A stretch of DNA of 64,000 nt from Verrucomicrobiota bacterium (GTDB taxonomy: Bacteria; Verrucomicrobiota; Verrucomicrobiia; Limisphaerales; JADLHS01): contig JAKQDQ010000093.1 of NCBI GenBank assembly GCA_029573725.1, positions 204,963 to 268,962 on the forward strand, written 5' to 3'. The position numbers and the translations under genes are program-made. Under the pieces are notes generated by a model, which ran no database searches, was not told the origin of the DNA, and saw nothing but the letters and a program-made list of their open reading frames with translations. Position 1 is the stretch's first letter. Every line of letters begins with the position of its first letter. This document shows positions 40,556 to 47,573 of this stretch, one piece after another.

Positions 40556-41914
40556 TCAAACCTCAAAACCCTGCTCGCGGAATCGTTGCAATTTGTACAA
40601 TAAGGCACGCCGGCTGATTCCCAGGGCGCGCGCGGTTTCCGTCCGGTTCTCCTGGTGTTCGCGCAGGGCCTGAAAAATGGCCTGTCGCTCGATTTCCTCC
40701 AGCCGCTGTGCATCCGGCAGCGCGGCGGGAGCGGCTTGCTCAACCACGGCGCGCACCCGGGCCGGCAGATGTTCGGGCAGGATCATTTCCCCGCGCGACA
40801 ACAACGCGGCCCGCTCCATCGCGTTGCCCAACTCGCGCACATTGCCCGGCCAGGCATAGCGGGTCAGGCCTTCAGTGACTGCGGCGGAAAAACGGGCCCG
40901 ACCCTGGGTGAATTTGCCGATGAAGTGGGCGGCCAGGGGCAGAATGTCCTCGGGCCGCTCCCGCAGGGGCGGCACGTTCAGTTCCACGACATTGAGCCGA
41001 TAAAACAGGTCCTCGCGAAACGCGCCCGCGCGCACCCGTTCTTCAAGGTTTTTATTGGTGGCGGCCAGCAGGCGGGCGTTGGTCTGCCGTTCCTGATTGG
41101 AGCCGACACGGCTGAAGCTGCCGTTCTGCGTCACCCGCAACAGCTTGGCCTGCAGTGGCGCGGTCATGTCGCCGATTTCATCCAGAAAAATCGTGCCGTC
41201 GTGCGCTTCCTCAAACCGGCCGATGCGCTGGGCGATCGCGCTTGTGAAAGCGCCCTTTTCGTGCCCGAACAATTCGGATTCCAGCAAATTTTCCGGAATG
41301 GCGGCGCAGTTCACTTTGACCAGAATCCCTGCGCTGCGCCGGCTCCACGCATGCAGCACATCCGCCAGGATTTCCTTGCCCACCCCGCTTTCCCCCGTAA
41401 TCAGGATTCGCGTGTCGGAGGGCGCCACCAGTGCGGCATCGCGGAACACCGTTTGCATCAGCGGACTTTGGGCAATGACCCCGACCGGCAGCGGCGGGAG
41501 CGTGATGGCCGGGGCGGGGGGACGGACGGTGCCGGTGGCCTTTTGAATGATCGCCAGCAATTCATCCAGATCAATCGGCTTGGCAAGGTAATTGACCGCC
41601 CCGTCACGCATGGCCCCGACCGCATCGCGAATGTCGGTGTACGCCGTCACCAACAAAACCGGGAGTGCGGTGTTGTGTTCGCGCGCGCGGCGCAGGGTTT
41701 CCAGTCCCGAAATGCCGGGCATGCGCACGTCGGACACCATCATGCTGAACTCGGTCTCGCGCAACAGGGCGAGGGCGCGCTCCCCCGAGTCCACGGCCAC
41801 CGGATCGTACCCCTGGGACTGCAAAAATGAACTCAAGAGACTGCGCTGGCCGGCGTCGTCATCCACGATCAGGATGCGCGGGGACCTGGACCATTTGCGC
41901 GTATCGGCGGACAC
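40556..41914 (-). CDS. Sigma-54-dependent response regulator (NtrC/AtoC family, GAFTSA variant)
   Basis: A 452-residue enhancer-binding protein. Receiver domain: acidic pocket D18-D20, phospho-acceptor D62, K112. AAA+ domain: Walker A GESGVGKE (174-181), sigma-54 contact loop GAFTSA (221-226, in place of GAFTGA), Walker B TIFLDE (241-246). The C-terminal Fis-type HTH includes RTETARALGISRRALLYKLQRF. No histidine kinase gene is adjacent. A -24/-12-like site lies about 1.1 kb away in front of the pilus ATPase operon, a plausible target. It lies 54 nt downstream of the secreted hydrolase gene. Confidence 0.93.
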   Translation of the reverse strand: MSADTRKWSRSPRILIVDDDAGQRSLLSSFLQSQGYDPVAVDSGERALALLRETEFSMMVSDVRMPGISGLETLRRAREHNTALPVLLVTAYTDIRDAVGAMRDGAVNYLAKPIDLDELLAIIQKATGTVRPPAPAITLPPLPVGVIAQSPLMQTVFRDAALVAPSDTRILITGESGVGKEILADVLHAWSRRSAGILVKVNCAAIPENLLESELFGHEKGAFTSAIAQRIGRFEEAHDGTIFLDEIGDMTAPLQAKLLRVTQNGSFSRVGSNQERQTNARLLAATNKNLEERVRAGAFREDLFYRLNVVELNVPPLRERPEDILPLAAHFIGKFTQGRARFSAAVTEGLTRYAWPGNVRELGNAMERAALLSRGEMILPEHLPARVRAVVEQAAPAALPDAQRLEEIERQAIFQALREHQENRTETARALGISRRALLYKLQRFREQGFEV

Positions 41915-41968: not shown

Positions 41969-42868
41969 TCAAGATCCGGCGGCCGGAGCAAGCGAACTGC
42001 TCTCCAGAAACCGCTGGAAGGTCCTGTGCCCGGCCAGCACCTCATTATGCCCCAGGTCGGTCGTCAGAAAGATGAATTGGTTGGTGCGCAGTTGCGCGGT
42101 GGAAACGCGCGTATCCGGAGCGAGCAAAAAGGGGAGTTTCTGCCGCTGCAACGTGTCCATCAATTCCTCCGAACGCTGCTTGGTGCCTCCGGTTTCCGTG
42201 AAGATGTCGAGCAGCCGTCCACCGGTGCGCTCCGCCCAGTGCAAAAAGCGTGGTGTCTGGGCGTAAAGCGCATCAAACAGCCATACCTCCTTGATGTGCT
42301 CCTCCAAACCGCCCTGCGCCACGATGGCGGACATTACCCGATAACCGCCACTGTGGCCGGAGAGGAGGATGGTGCCCGGGGCGGCGTTCGTGGCAATGAT
42401 GCGGTTTGTTTGCAGCACGGACATGGCTTCCGTCATGAAGCGGCGAAACCCGCCTTCGTCCTCCAGCCGGCCGCCGCCAGAATCGGGGGCATCGGTCGGC
42501 CCCTGGGGCACGATCAGAATGGCGTTCCGGCCACTGGCCACCAGTTGTTCGATCAATTGGTAATGCTCCAGCACTCCGGCCAGCCGGCCGCGCCACCCAT
42601 GAAAATGCACGACGAAATCCACCGCGCTTCCAGCCCGGAACCGGCGCGGAATGAACAACGCCACGGTATTGTCCTGGTAATGCTCCGCAGCGGAATAATG
42701 TTTCCCCTGGTAGGTGTATCCCGCCGCCCGGCTGGGGTGCGGAAAGGGCGCGGAGGCAAAGGGAGCCAGGATCAATTTTCCCTGCGCGGCATAGCTTGCC
42801 GGAGACGGCTCATCGGCATCCGCCCGGCAGCAAAGCAGGACCAAACCCAGGAGCAGATAGCGTTTCAT
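41969..42868 (-). CDS. Secreted alpha/beta hydrolase
   Basis: A 299-residue protein with a signal peptide (MKRYLLLGLVLLCCRADA). The catalytic triad is visible: S173 in the nucleophile elbow GHSGGYRV, D199 in WLFDA and H274 in DLGHNEV. The block DFVVHFHGWRGRL near 84-96 is the usual oxyanion strand-loop. It probably hydrolyses an ester or similar bond in the periplasm; the substrate is unknown. It is followed by the sigma-54 regulator gene 54 nt downstream on the same strand. Confidence 0.8.
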   Translation of the reverse strand: MKRYLLLGLVLLCCRADADEPSPASYAAQGKLILAPFASAPFPHPSRAAGYTYQGKHYSAAEHYQDNTVALFIPRRFRAGSAVDFVVHFHGWRGRLAGVLEHYQLIEQLVASGRNAILIVPQGPTDAPDSGGGRLEDEGGFRRFMTEAMSVLQTNRIIATNAAPGTILLSGHSGGYRVMSAIVAQGGLEEHIKEVWLFDALYAQTPRFLHWAERTGGRLLDIFTETGGTKQRSEELMDTLQRQKLPFLLAPDTRVSTAQLRTNQFIFLTTDLGHNEVLAGHRTFQRFLESSSLAPAAGS

Positions 42869-43013
42869 GTGGACAGCATGGTGAAAAATCCGCCGGAAGG
42901 GAGAAAATTCGGGCGAAACAGTGTGCGGCAGCCGTGCCGGAACGAGACACGGGTGTCTCCGGACAGGGAGGAAAAGCGGCGAAATTCCGGCGATTTGCTT
43001 TCGGATTGGGCCT

Positions 43014-43029
43014 TGGCCAGCGGATTGCT
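43014..43029 (+). promoter_or_regulatory. Candidate sigma-54 (-24/-12) promoter of the MshEN-pilB operon
   Basis: TGGCCAG, four bases, TTGCT: compared with the consensus TGGCACG-N4-TTGCW, the invariant GG and GC and 10 of 12 defined positions match (C/A and A/C are swapped at positions 5-6), with exact spacing. It ends 66 nt before the ATG at 43095, so the transcript would start near 43040. A sigma-54 activator is encoded nearby. The match is by eye. Confidence 0.6.
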
Positions 43030-43094
43030 TTTACCGGATTGCCCGGCATGAAGTCGTACCAAAAAGCAAAACATGTCGGGCGGGTTTGACTCAA

Positions 43095-43943
43095 ATGGCC
43101 ACGACTTTAACGCAGAGCGAAGAAGCCCAATTTATCCAGACGATTGAGATGTTTGAGGTCATCACCCAGTCTCAACCTAACGACTATCAGTCGCTGGAAA
43201 TTCTCAAGGAGGCGTACACCAAATTGGGACGTGAAGCCGAGGTGGTCAGCACTGCCAAACGCATCGCCCAAGCCTATGTCCTGACCGGTCAGTTTTCCTC
43301 GGCCATTCTCGAATATGAGACCATCCTGCAGCAGCATCCGAACGACCCGGAGGCCCAGCAGGGACTCCGGGAGATCGAAGCCAAATCGGCCACGACGACC
43401 ACTTCTCCCTACGGCGAGGAAACAACCCTGTTCCGGCGGCCTGAAGAAAGCGTGGATTCAGCGCGGCACGCCGCCATCCCCACCACAGACGGGCTGGACG
43501 ATGGACGCAAGCAGATGCACAAGGTGTTCGTCAAAAGCAAGCTCATCGCGGAGGCGGATTTCGACATCTGCTGGCCCGAGGTGGATTTGACCGCCCCACC
43601 CACCGAGGTTTGCACGCCGTTCCTCCAGGTCATCACGGACAAGGCGCTGGTCGCGACCGAGGTGGCGCTGAAGTTGATCAGCGATCGAACCCGGCTGCCC
43701 TGTCTGCCGTTGGAACGCTACGAGGTGGATTTTGAGCTGGCGCGCTCGTTTCCCGCCGCCCTCTGTCGCCGTTGGTGCATCCTACCGTTCGACCGGATGA
43801 GCAAGTCCGTGCTCCTCGCCACCACGAACCCATTCAATCAGCAGGTGATCAGGGAACTGCAAGCCGTCACCAACGACCGGCTGCTGTGGTACCTGGCGTC
43901 GCCCGCTGAAATCGCGAAGAACCTGCAGAAAATTTTCCGCTGA
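43095..43943 (+). CDS. TPR plus MshEN-like protein, partner of the pilus/secretion ATPase
   Basis: A 282-residue protein. Residues about 10-95 form TPR-like helices (DYQSLEILKEAYTKLGREAE, then FSSAILEYETILQQHPND). From about 115 on there is a degenerate MshEN/GspE-N-like domain (MHKVFVKSKLIAEADFD, LLATTNPFNQQVIREL), the module that sits in front of GspE/PilB ATPases and in some binds cyclic di-GMP. The start was set at ATG 43095; the longer upstream frame is not coding-like. It is separated from pilB by one base. Confidence 0.72.
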   Translation: MATTLTQSEEAQFIQTIEMFEVITQSQPNDYQSLEILKEAYTKLGREAEVVSTAKRIAQAYVLTGQFSSAILEYETILQQHPNDPEAQQGLREIEAKSATTTTSPYGEETTLFRRPEESVDSARHAAIPTTDGLDDGRKQMHKVFVKSKLIAEADFDICWPEVDLTAPPTEVCTPFLQVITDKALVATEVALKLISDRTRLPCLPLERYEVDFELARSFPAALCRRWCILPFDRMSKSVLLATTNPFNQQVIRELQAVTNDRLLWYLASPAEIAKNLQKIFR

Positions 43944-43944
43944 T

Positions 43945-45678
43945 ATGCGCCCCGTAAAGTCATTTGGCGAACGAATTGCCGACGCGCTGGTCGAGGATGG
44001 TCTGTTGTCGAGCCAGCAGGTGGAGGAGTTGCTGGAACAGCAAAAAACCGAAGGCGCCCGCTTCGTTAAACTGGTCACCGAGAAGGCCTACGTCAGCGAG
44101 CAAGACCTGACCGTCTGCATGGGGCGGGTATTGAACGTGCCCCCCGTCAACCTGGCGCGCCTGTCCATCCCGGTGGAAGTCGCCGAGCTGTTGCCGCGCG
44201 AAGTGGCGCACAACCATCGCGTGCTGCCGGTTTCGCGGGTGGACAACAAGCTGTTTCTGGCGATGGCCGATCCGTTGAACGTGCTGGCCATTGACGACGT
44301 CAAGCGCATCACCCGGCTGGAGGTCTTTCCCCTGATCGCGTGCGACAAGGCGATTGCCGAGAAATTCAACGCCCTGGACGCCGCCAAGAGCGGCAGCATG
44401 GAGGAGATCCTCCAGGACGCCGCGAACCAGGGCGTGGATGCCGACGGGGAATTTGAAACGGTCCAGGAATCGGTGGAGGAGGTCAATCTCGACCAGCTCG
44501 CCGCCTCCAGTGAAGAAGCGCCGGTCATCAAGCTGGCCAACATCATCGTCATGCAGGCCATCAAGGACCGCGCCAGCGACATCCACATCGAACCCTTCGA
44601 GAAGGTGCTGCGCCTGCGCTACCGCATTGACGGGTCGCTGGTGGATGCCACGCCGCCGCCCAAGAGCATGCAATTGGCGCTGGCCTCGCGTTTCAAAATC
44701 ATGGCGAGCCTGGACATCGCCGAACGCCGCCTGCCCCAGGACGGCCGCATGCGGGTGCGCGTCGGCGGCAAGGATTACGATCTGCGCGTTTCCATCATGC
44801 CCACCGTCCACGGGGAAAAGATTGTGTTGCGCGTGCTGGACAAGAGCAATCTCTCCGCCAGTCTCGACCGGCTGGGATTGGACCCCGACACCTTCACCCA
44901 GTTCAAGCAAGCGGTGGATGCACCGCACGGCCTCATCCTGGTCACGGGACCGACCGGTTCGGGCAAGACCACCACCCTTTACTCGGCGTTGAATGAACTG
45001 AACAGCCCCATCTTCAACATCGTCACGGTGGAAGATCCGGTGGAATTCCAGATTCCCGGCATCAACCAGGTCCCGGTCAAAAAGGAAATCGGCCTCACCT
45101 TCGCCAACGCCCTGCGCTCCATTCTGCGCCAGGACCCGGACATTGTGATGATCGGCGAAATTCGCGACATGGAAACGGCGGAAATCGCCATCGAAGCCTC
45201 CCTGACCGGCCACCAGGTGCTCTCCACGATGCACTGCAATGACGCGCCCGGCGCGATCGCGCGTCTGGACGACATGGGCATCGCCCCGTTCCTGATTTCC
45301 TCCTCGGTGATCTTGTCCTGCGCGCAACGCCTGTTGCGTCGCATCTGCCCGCATTGCAAGGAGCCGGTGACTTATCCCGCCAAGATGTTCAATGACCTGC
45401 AAATGGACCCCAGCGCCTTCGACGGAGTGACACTGTACCGTGGCCGCGGATGTGATCGGTGCAAGAACACCGGGTATGCCGGCCGGCTGGCGATCATCGA
45501 GGCCATGACCGTCACCGACGAGATCCGCAAACTGATCATTGCGCGGGCGAATTCGCGCGAGATCAGCAAGGTGGCCATCAGCCAGGGCATGAAGACGCTG
45601 CGCATGGTGGCGCTGGACCGGGCGCGGGAAGGCGCTTCCACCCTCGAACAGGTCATGTTGATGACGTCGGCCCACTGA
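43945..45678 (+). CDS. pilB: Type IV pilus / type II secretion assembly ATPase (PilB/GspE family)
   Basis: A 577-residue traffic ATPase. N-terminal MshEN domain (about 1-135, FGERIADALVEDGLLSSQQ); the GspE core has Walker A GPTGSGKTTTLY near 335, the Asp box, and Walker B with VMIGEIRDMETAEIA, followed by the His box (LTGHQVLSTMH). A zinc tetracysteine motif lies near 467-505 (CPHC...CDRC). It polymerises pilin or pseudopilin from the inner membrane. No other pil or gsp gene is present, so pilus versus secretion cannot be separated. It is coupled to the MshEN partner gene, possibly under sigma-54. Confidence 0.93.
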   Translation: MRPVKSFGERIADALVEDGLLSSQQVEELLEQQKTEGARFVKLVTEKAYVSEQDLTVCMGRVLNVPPVNLARLSIPVEVAELLPREVAHNHRVLPVSRVDNKLFLAMADPLNVLAIDDVKRITRLEVFPLIACDKAIAEKFNALDAAKSGSMEEILQDAANQGVDADGEFETVQESVEEVNLDQLAASSEEAPVIKLANIIVMQAIKDRASDIHIEPFEKVLRLRYRIDGSLVDATPPPKSMQLALASRFKIMASLDIAERRLPQDGRMRVRVGGKDYDLRVSIMPTVHGEKIVLRVLDKSNLSASLDRLGLDPDTFTQFKQAVDAPHGLILVTGPTGSGKTTTLYSALNELNSPIFNIVTVEDPVEFQIPGINQVPVKKEIGLTFANALRSILRQDPDIVMIGEIRDMETAEIAIEASLTGHQVLSTMHCNDAPGAIARLDDMGIAPFLISSSVILSCAQRLLRRICPHCKEPVTYPAKMFNDLQMDPSAFDGVTLYRGRGCDRCKNTGYAGRLAIIEAMTVTDEIRKLIIARANSREISKVAISQGMKTLRMVALDRAREGASTLEQVMLMTSAH

Positions 45679-45713: not shown

Positions 45714-47573
45714 CTACGCGGCAGCTTCGGACGAGGAAGCGGGAGCGGCGGGCGGAACGTAAGCCTCGATTTTTTCGATGCGATACCGGTGCCTCACCCC
45801 GTCCACTTCCACCTCGGTGGCGTCGCCGACCTTCCGGTTGAGCAGGGCCTGGCCGACCGGGGTCAGGTAGCTGATGATGTTCCGGGTCACATCAAAATCC
45901 CACGCCCCAAGCACCGTGAACGCTTCCAGGGCATTGGTGTTCAAATCGGTCACCCGCACCAGCGTGCCGATGTTGACCACGTCCGTCTGGACGTTGCTGA
46001 AGTCCGTGCCCTGCGCCCGCGCCAACTGGGCCTCCAACTCCCCCTTTCGGCGCATGAGGATTTTCTGCATTTCCTTGGCGGATTTGTACTCATGGTTTTC
46101 GCGCAGATCGCCATAGCTGCGGGCGACGGCAATCTCCTTGGAATTGGCCGGGATCTTCTTCTGCACCAGTTCGGCGTATTCCGCGCGCCGCCGCTCCAGA
46201 CTCTCCCAGGACACGTAGAGCACCCCCTCCTGCTTGTTCGCGGGTTCGCCGGTGATGAGCGATTGCACCGACGGGTGGCGCTTCACAATGCGCGCCAGAA
46301 GCGAGCGTTTGTCCATGTCCTCAAACGCGGGTGAAAATTGCAATGCGCGGGTCAGATCCTTGACGACCTCGATGTCGGCCGTGCCCGTCAAATCTGCAAT
46401 CAATTCCTGATCCGACAGCATGAAGTCGCGCAGGCGGTTGGAGCGCTTCTCGTTGAACTGATCGTGTTCAATGGCGGTCAGCATGGCGCGGAACACTTCC
46501 GGGCCGAGAATGTCCGCGTAATCATCGCTGCGTTCCTTGCCGAGCCAGAGCAACAGCTCACTGCCGGCGGCGTGCTGACTGATGAGGCGCGCCAGTGTCT
46601 CCTTCAACTCCGGCAGTTGGTTGTTGTGCGCCAGGATGCTGGCAAATTCCTTGCACAGGCGCGCCGGCACCATGTTGAACGCGGTCAGCAGCGTTTCGAT
46701 CCAACGATCCGGTTGCGCGTCCTTGAAGGATTCCAGGGTCCGGCGGTGCTTGGCCGCCGGCGTCGCCTCCATGACGGCGCCGAATTTGACGCCCTCCTGG
46801 TTCCACAGTTGGGTGGCGGTAATTTCATCCGCGGCCGGGGTCAACCCGGCCATCGCCGCCACGTCTTCGCGCACGAAAATGGCCTCCAAAGCCACCGCCG
46901 TTTGCGCGCGCAGGTACGCTGGAATGTCAGCGTTCAAGGCGGCGATGATTTCCCGGGCCACCGCGGCCTTATCCTGCAAATCCGCCGCGTTTTTTACCAC
47001 TTCCGTGGCGGCGGCCAGCCGCGCCTTCAAGCCTTTGGCCGCCTGGAAATCCGCCAGCAGCCGGTCCTGCAGGGAGGTTTCCTGCTCGGTATACACAATC
47101 GGCTCGCTCTTCTTGGTGGGCACAATGAAATGGCCGTCCTTCTTCATCTCGGCGCGCACCGTTTCCCACCATTTTTTCCAGTCGTCACGAATGACCTCCG
47201 GGACGAGCGCCTGTTGAATCTGGGCCACCGTGGCCTTGCCGTCATAGCTGTTGAGCACAATGCGGATCAGATCCAGATGGTTGAGCGCGGCGATCTTTTG
47301 CAACCCCTCCAGGTCCACGGATTTCCGCGCCAAAATGTGGTCTTTCGGAATCGGCTTGAGCGTCTCGGCGGCAAAGGAAAGATTCATCGCGTGGTCGGGC
47401 TTGCCCGCAAAATCAATGGTGAAACGCGCGAAAACCGTGTCCACCGTCTTGATCCGGCCGAACCCCCAACTGCGGTGCTCGCAAAACCCGCTGGTGGTCA
47501 ACCGCACCAGCGGCTCAATCTGACGCCCTTCGATTTTTCCCGCCGCCGCCAACTTCTCAAATTCTTCTTTCAT
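45714..47573 (-). CDS. greA: GreA/GreB-type transcript cleavage factor with large N-terminal region
   Basis: A 619-residue fusion. Residues about 450-606 are a full Gre domain: a coiled coil with GDLRENHEYKSAKE (the acidic tip that reaches into RNA polymerase to restart stalled complexes) and a C-terminal FKBP-like part with PVGQALL. Residues 1-440 are an extra region with an SH3-like start (SWGFGRIKTVDTVFARFTIDF) and helical repeats. Such long fusions are known in chlamydiae and other PVC bacteria. The role of the extension is unknown. It is divergent from rsmB (51 nt). Confidence 0.88.
   Translation of the reverse strand: MKEEFEKLAAAGKIEGRQIEPLVRLTTSGFCEHRSWGFGRIKTVDTVFARFTIDFAGKPDHAMNLSFAAETLKPIPKDHILARKSVDLEGLQKIAALNHLDLIRIVLNSYDGKATVAQIQQALVPEVIRDDWKKWWETVRAEMKKDGHFIVPTKKSEPIVYTEQETSLQDRLLADFQAAKGLKARLAAATEVVKNAADLQDKAAVAREIIAALNADIPAYLRAQTAVALEAIFVREDVAAMAGLTPAADEITATQLWNQEGVKFGAVMEATPAAKHRRTLESFKDAQPDRWIETLLTAFNMVPARLCKEFASILAHNNQLPELKETLARLISQHAAGSELLLWLGKERSDDYADILGPEVFRAMLTAIEHDQFNEKRSNRLRDFMLSDQELIADLTGTADIEVVKDLTRALQFSPAFEDMDKRSLLARIVKRHPSVQSLITGEPANKQEGVLYVSWESLERRRAEYAELVQKKIPANSKEIAVARSYGDLRENHEYKSAKEMQKILMRRKGELEAQLARAQGTDFSNVQTDVVNIGTLVRVTDLNTNALEAFTVLGAWDFDVTRNIISYLTPVGQALLNRKVGDATEVEVDGVRHRYRIEKIEAYVPPAAPASSSEAAA

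Follow-up and report, generated by a model that had tools for sequence, protein, structure and literature searches.

A probable sigma-54 promoter with a candidate enhancer in front of a TPR-MshEN-pilB operon in a Limisphaerales bacterium

Organisation of the locus

Within the window, i.e. the whole stretch of 64,000 nucleotides which was analysed, a gene for a TPR-MshEN protein is followed by the gene of a PilB/GspE-type assembly ATPase (Table 1), an arrangement which recurs in all relatives as pilB lies directly 3' of the TPR-MshEN gene in 80 out of 80. The first protein carries its MshEN domain at the C-terminus, with TPR-like repeats besides, and its start codon at 43095 is fixed by the conserved N-terminus MATTLTxxEEAQ seen in an alignment of 26 relatives. 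For the ATPase, the best match in NCBIfam is type_IV_pilB with 651 bits, which is below the cut-off of 676. Divergent from this pair is a gene whose product has no match in Pfam or NCBIfam and which was matched near the pilus pair in seven relatives. As the only gene in between, it separates the pair from that of a sigma-54 activator, likewise on the opposite strand and 1.1 kb away from the promoter element described below. Convergent with pilB, positions 45714-47573 encode a protein of 619 aa in which a GreA/GreB domain is joined to a long N-terminal extension.

Table 1. Coordinates of the features at the locus (positions within the window).
Feature	Position	Strand	Remarks
Response regulator-AAA+-Fis HTH sigma-54 activator, GAFTSA variant	40556..41914	-	full RR-AAA+-HTH architecture; proposed earlier as cognate activator, judged unlikely
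Gene without recognised family, divergent from the pilus pair	41969..42868	-	serine-hydrolase-like sequence by eye
Perfect palindrome, candidate enhancer (UAS)	42944..42959	.	centre at about -89 from the predicted start 43040
Very probable -24/-12 sigma-54 promoter TGGCCAG-CGGA-TTGCT	43014..43029	+	TGGC/TGCT invariant, spacer variable in relatives
Predicted transcription start (43040) and 55-nt 5' leader	43040..43094	+	derived from standard -12 geometry
TPR-MshEN protein, 282 aa, first of pair	43095..43943	+	Pfam MshEN 5.6e-15, TPR
PilB/GspE-type assembly ATPase, 577 aa, second of pair	43945..45678	+	T2SSE 6e-137, own MshEN domain

The sigma-54 element and its chance level

On the forward strand, positions 43014-43029 read TGGCCAGCGGATTGCT, in which the GG and GC dinucleotides are ten bases apart and thus at canonical -24/-12 spacing. 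This is the site which the initial annotation had described as TGGCCAG-N4-TTGCT with both invariant dinucleotides and exact spacing, and that description holds. Its placement in front of the gene pair is likewise correct, but the distance given as 66 nt has to be amended to the 65 nt which we count up to the ATG of the TPR-MshEN gene. An rpoN-dependent start is expected 12 nt after the GC, by which transcription would begin at about 43040. A scan of positions 42700-43200 for sigma-70-like promoters and terminators found none.

Taken by itself, the sequence match is not above chance in the window. Exact TGGCN7TTGCW is present five times in these 64 kb as opposed to 2.0 times expected from shuffled sequence, a count of five being reached by 7 of 100 shuffles, and the annotation was right in cautioning that an exact match cannot count as proof. 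Genome-wide, the exact matches number 149 versus 71 for the reversed control pattern (the narrower TGGCN7TTGCT, counted separately, occurs at 71 sites). Counting exact matches, be it in the window or in the genome, was discarded as evidence, being uninformative.

Conservation in front of orthologous genes

Relatives were collected by searching whole genomes and by screening public species genomes (80 loci), giving a total of 81 orthologous loci; the titles of the relatives' records name Limisphaerales, Verrucomicrobia subdivision 3 and Pedosphaera. At each locus, the 200 nt upstream of the TPR-MshEN gene were scanned. Strict TGGC-N7-TTGCW is found in 41 and relaxed TGGY-N7-YTGCW in 46 of these 81 regions, compared to 0-1 loci for each of the other spacers (3-6 and 8-12) and a mean of 0.76 in a Markov control. 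A search of related genomes for the site before the same gene pair, which the annotation had suggested as a check, finds it kept at about half of the loci, with a spacer of seven only; placement and conservation together lift the site far above chance. Alignment of 45 sites near the gene reveals TGGC and TGCT to be invariant and the bases between them to vary. In the protein tree, sites are found in both halves of the family, and the window protein falls into a clade of five, supported at 99/100, whose members all possess the site. As judged from sequence comparison, a promoter maintained by selection in an order of soil and freshwater bacteria would look like this. Since 36 of the 81 loci, including one clade of 16, are without a recognisable site, sigma-54 control of the operon is not universal among the relatives.

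The genome encodes one rpoN (contig C30, match 1e-57) and, among its enhancer-binding proteins, nine clear sigma-54 activators. In the relatives, rpoN was found in 53 of 56 genomes, and in 37 of the 37 with a completeness of at least 90% and a contamination of at most 5%. Relating loss of the site to loss of rpoN was discarded as a test without power, rpoN being near-universal.

In one part of the tree (L089, L092, L096, L099, L100, L108-L111, L113, L114, L116, L117, L123, L137, L140 and L143) the putative promoter is located merely 10-20 nt before the ATG. The predicted RNA start would there coincide with the start codon or precede it by up to about 10 nt, rendering these transcripts leaderless or nearly so.

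Further elements in front of pilus and secretion genes

Two of the 71 TGGCN7TTGCT sites fall in one pilus cluster of this genome. Its own pilM is preceded by a sigma-54 site 87 nt upstream, and the minor-pilin operon, a gene run starting with two N-methylated pilin-like proteins, by one at a distance of 27 nt. Among upstream regions of pilM from relatives the element is present in 16 of 30, with other spacers yielding 0-1. In addition, the consensus-like TGGCACG-AACT-TTGCA (L280:340-355, identical to G000:C71:294045-294060) lies 79 nt before a gene for a small secreted protein which is followed by gspE-like and gspF-like genes. Altogether the genome contains six ATPase genes of the PilB/GspE type and four of the PilT type; strict TGGCN7TTGCW shortly before the operon is seen for two of the six PilB/GspE genes, namely the window pilB and that of the gspE-gspF operon. 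Because such sites precede, besides the TPR-MshEN-pilB operon, also pilM, the minor-pilin operon and the second gspE-gspF operon, we interpret these predicted promoters as a sigma-54 pilus/secretion regulon.

Some further features of these upstream regions may be recorded here. In several relatives (L219, L222, L226, L230, L237, L245 and others) CTTGCAA recurs about 40 nt before the start of pilM and is often followed 17-18 nt further on by TAA-rich sequence, which looks like a second promoter of the housekeeping type. In our genome and two others of the same genus (L218, L220, L221), an inverted repeat CCGGGG...CCCCGG is situated just 5' of the -24 element of pilM. Sigma-54-like sites are also present upstream of a histidine-ammonia-lyase-like gene (L169:1963-1978, at a distance of 58 nt) and of the gene of a PEP-CTERM-looking product (L161:1958-1973, at 72 nt).

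A palindrome upstream of the element

Upstream of the element, between the two divergent genes, lies the perfect palindrome GAGACACGGGTGTCTC (Table 1). Among the words most enriched within 160 nt upstream of the sites are AGACAC (13 of 45 versus 1.6 expected) and GAGACA (12 of 45 versus 1.8 expected). The enriched GTGTCT/AGACAC contains GTCT, a candidate half-site of the PilR type. As GTCT elements have been described as hallmarks of the sites bound by Pseudomonas aeruginosa PilR (PMC6058289), a PilR-like mode of binding at the palindrome appears plausible by analogy. Without mismatch, RGACA-N4-TGTCY is present at eight of the 45 loci with a site and at none of the 36 loci lacking one. At all eight loci, some of which are related to each other, its start lies 69-90 nt 5' of the -24 element; two more relatives have kept one half-site at the position of the palindrome. 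The same palindrome precedes pilM in G029, G033 and G016; the pilM promoter element itself is present by the definition used in the former two and only in a looser form in G016. Upstream of the genome's own pilM the palindrome occurs in a version with a spacer longer by one base, while the minor-pilin genes are preceded by loose half-sites only. In the genome, an exact match to RGACACNNGTGTCY exists only in the window palindrome, and copies with one mismatch are not more frequent than in the control; a genome-wide list of palindromes was accordingly rejected as a list of regulon members.

From its position and recurrence we consider the palindrome to be probably the enhancer of the sigma-54 promoter. 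It could instead be the operator of an unrelated repressor or regulator controlling the divergent gene 41969-42868, given that about 76 nt separate it from the beginning of that gene and that many regulators bind palindromes. This is unlikely, as the palindrome keeps a fixed distance from the -24 element, is absent from loci without the site, is retained in L082, L086 and L101 where the divergent gene is not adjacent, and recurs before pilM.

Candidates for the activator

The initial annotation had proposed that the operon is driven from its sigma-54 promoter by the activator encoded nearby at 40.6-41.9 kb. The promoter half of this proposal is upheld by conservation, spacing, the presence of rpoN and the sites before other pilus operons, whereas the half concerning the nearby activator, which is unlinked in relatives, is not supported. 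Apart from one weak partial match, the window activator is beside the gene pair in none of the 80 relatives. About two in three relatives, both with and without the site, have an orthologue of it (at least 59% identity). These orthologues sit in other neighbourhoods; in at least one of these (L257) a probable kinase gene is located just upstream. In a count made by hand, an orthologue is present in 14 of 16 genomes with the site compared to 9 of 14 without (one-sided hypergeometric p ~0.14), so the activator does not follow the distribution of the site. No orthologue was found in G029 and G050, whose assemblies are incomplete (89% and 86%), but both possess the promoter and the half-sites. A link of the neighbour to the operon by synteny or by presence and absence was thus sought with negative outcome.

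The window activator contains GAFTSA in place of GAFTGA. Of the orthologues compared (L248-L259), those from the same genus and that of G036 share this variant, while the remaining ones show GAFTGA or GSFTGA. Because NorR with a serine at this loop position remained active under looser control (PMC2941729), the exchange would not seem to disqualify the protein, and the window activator may work on other targets. That it nonetheless serves the promoter is quite improbable, though it may act in trans. Its distance from the element, its complete domain architecture, its frequency in site-bearing relatives and the fact that activator genes are often near their targets (PMC2725144) speak in its favour; against it stand the separation from the gene pair in relatives, its apparent absence from the two promoter-bearing genomes, its frequency in genomes lacking the site, which is hardly lower, and the probable kinase gene preceding an orthologue in at least one relative.

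Five activators are encoded by G029, four of which have orthologues in our genome (at C71:7 kb, C71:526 kb, C87:243 kb and C73:43.5 kb), and all four are also represented in G050. Provided that promoter and activator are passed on together, the activator is most likely to be sought among these four unlinked, conserved proteins and not in the neighbour. As a best guess, tentative and intended as a lead only, we name the histidine kinase-response regulator pair at C73:42-45 kb. The last helix of its regulator reads SRHALRYRMQRLN, which we take to resemble PilR. The kinase was considered as PilS, for which Pfam provides no support: even at E<=1 only HisKA/HATPase were found. Hardly any genome lacks the C73 activator, and it occurs also where this pilus is missing. 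In the PilS-PilR arrangement a six-helix PilS kinase is paired with PilR beside pilus genes; a location within a pilus cluster was found neither for the window activator in relatives nor for the C73 pair in our genome.

Proposed mechanism

On the evidence described, positions 43014-43029 very probably constitute the sigma-54 promoter of the TPR-MshEN-pilB operon. RNA polymerase containing the single RpoN would bind there as a closed complex, while an NtrC-family activator would bind the palindrome as a multimer and, by looping, open the promoter at the expense of ATP so that RNA synthesis starts. The same control, exerted on the unlinked pilM, minor-pilin and second gspE-gspF operons, would switch on parts of the pilus and secretion machinery together. 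A mere chance match, with the operon read from a housekeeping promoter, is extremely improbable: the match counts in window and genome are in keeping with it, but spacer-specific conservation at 41-46 of 81 loci and the lack of a sigma-70-like promoter in the region scanned are not.

Going further, we put forward, as a possibility slightly short of an even chance, a sigma-54 regulon of pilus and secretion genes extending across the order Limisphaerales, operated through a fixed-distance RGACA-N4-TGTCY enhancer and an unlinked activator, with the promoter of one sub-clade having come to lie 10-20 nt upstream of the ATG. The transcripts of that sub-clade would then be leaderless or have leaders of only a few nucleotides.

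For a phylum in which few promoters have been mapped, the element is one of the better supported among sigma-54 promoters proposed from sequence. What had been a guess at a single site becomes a testable regulon with a candidate enhancer and an activator narrowed to a short list, and the case warns against always taking the nearest activator gene for the cognate one.

Comparison with known systems

A search of the open literature, subscription papers being outside its scope, found no paper on sigma-54 pilus promoters in Verrucomicrobiota, and lineage, enhancer and extent of the regulon appear to be unreported in the literature searched. COG2804 and COG4972 presumably correspond to PilB/GspE and PilM, respectively. 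Precisely these two are among the T2SS/T4P genes for which sigma-54 control has been predicted in Myxococcia (PMC12316311). The same gene classes thus have predicted sigma-54 promoters there and here; unlike the present analysis, that survey mentions Opitutia and Verrucomicrobiia with no enrichment of pilus ATPases, and no Limisphaerales. A general link of sigma-54 to flagella and pili, and to control of the cell exterior, has been described (PMC3162934); our case shares this control of the cell exterior, while no Verrucomicrobia are named in the text of that paper.

A close parallel is pilA with PilS-PilR in Pseudomonas aeruginosa and Geobacter sulfurreducens, where, as here, a sigma-54 promoter of a pilus gene is combined with an upstream enhancer (a candidate in our case); the RpoN promoter of G. 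sulfurreducens pilA has been mapped by 5'-RACE (PMC2725144). In contrast to pilA, the targets proposed here include an assembly-ATPase operon and pilM, the candidate enhancer is a palindrome of 14-16 bp, and Pfam recognises no PilS-type kinase. Whereas pilR adjoins pilA in Geobacter, the activator is here probably unlinked. Systems of this kind have been described before (PMC3162934, PMC2725144, PMC12316311); the theme of sigma-54 and pili is extended to a lineage for which no report was found, the mechanism not being new.
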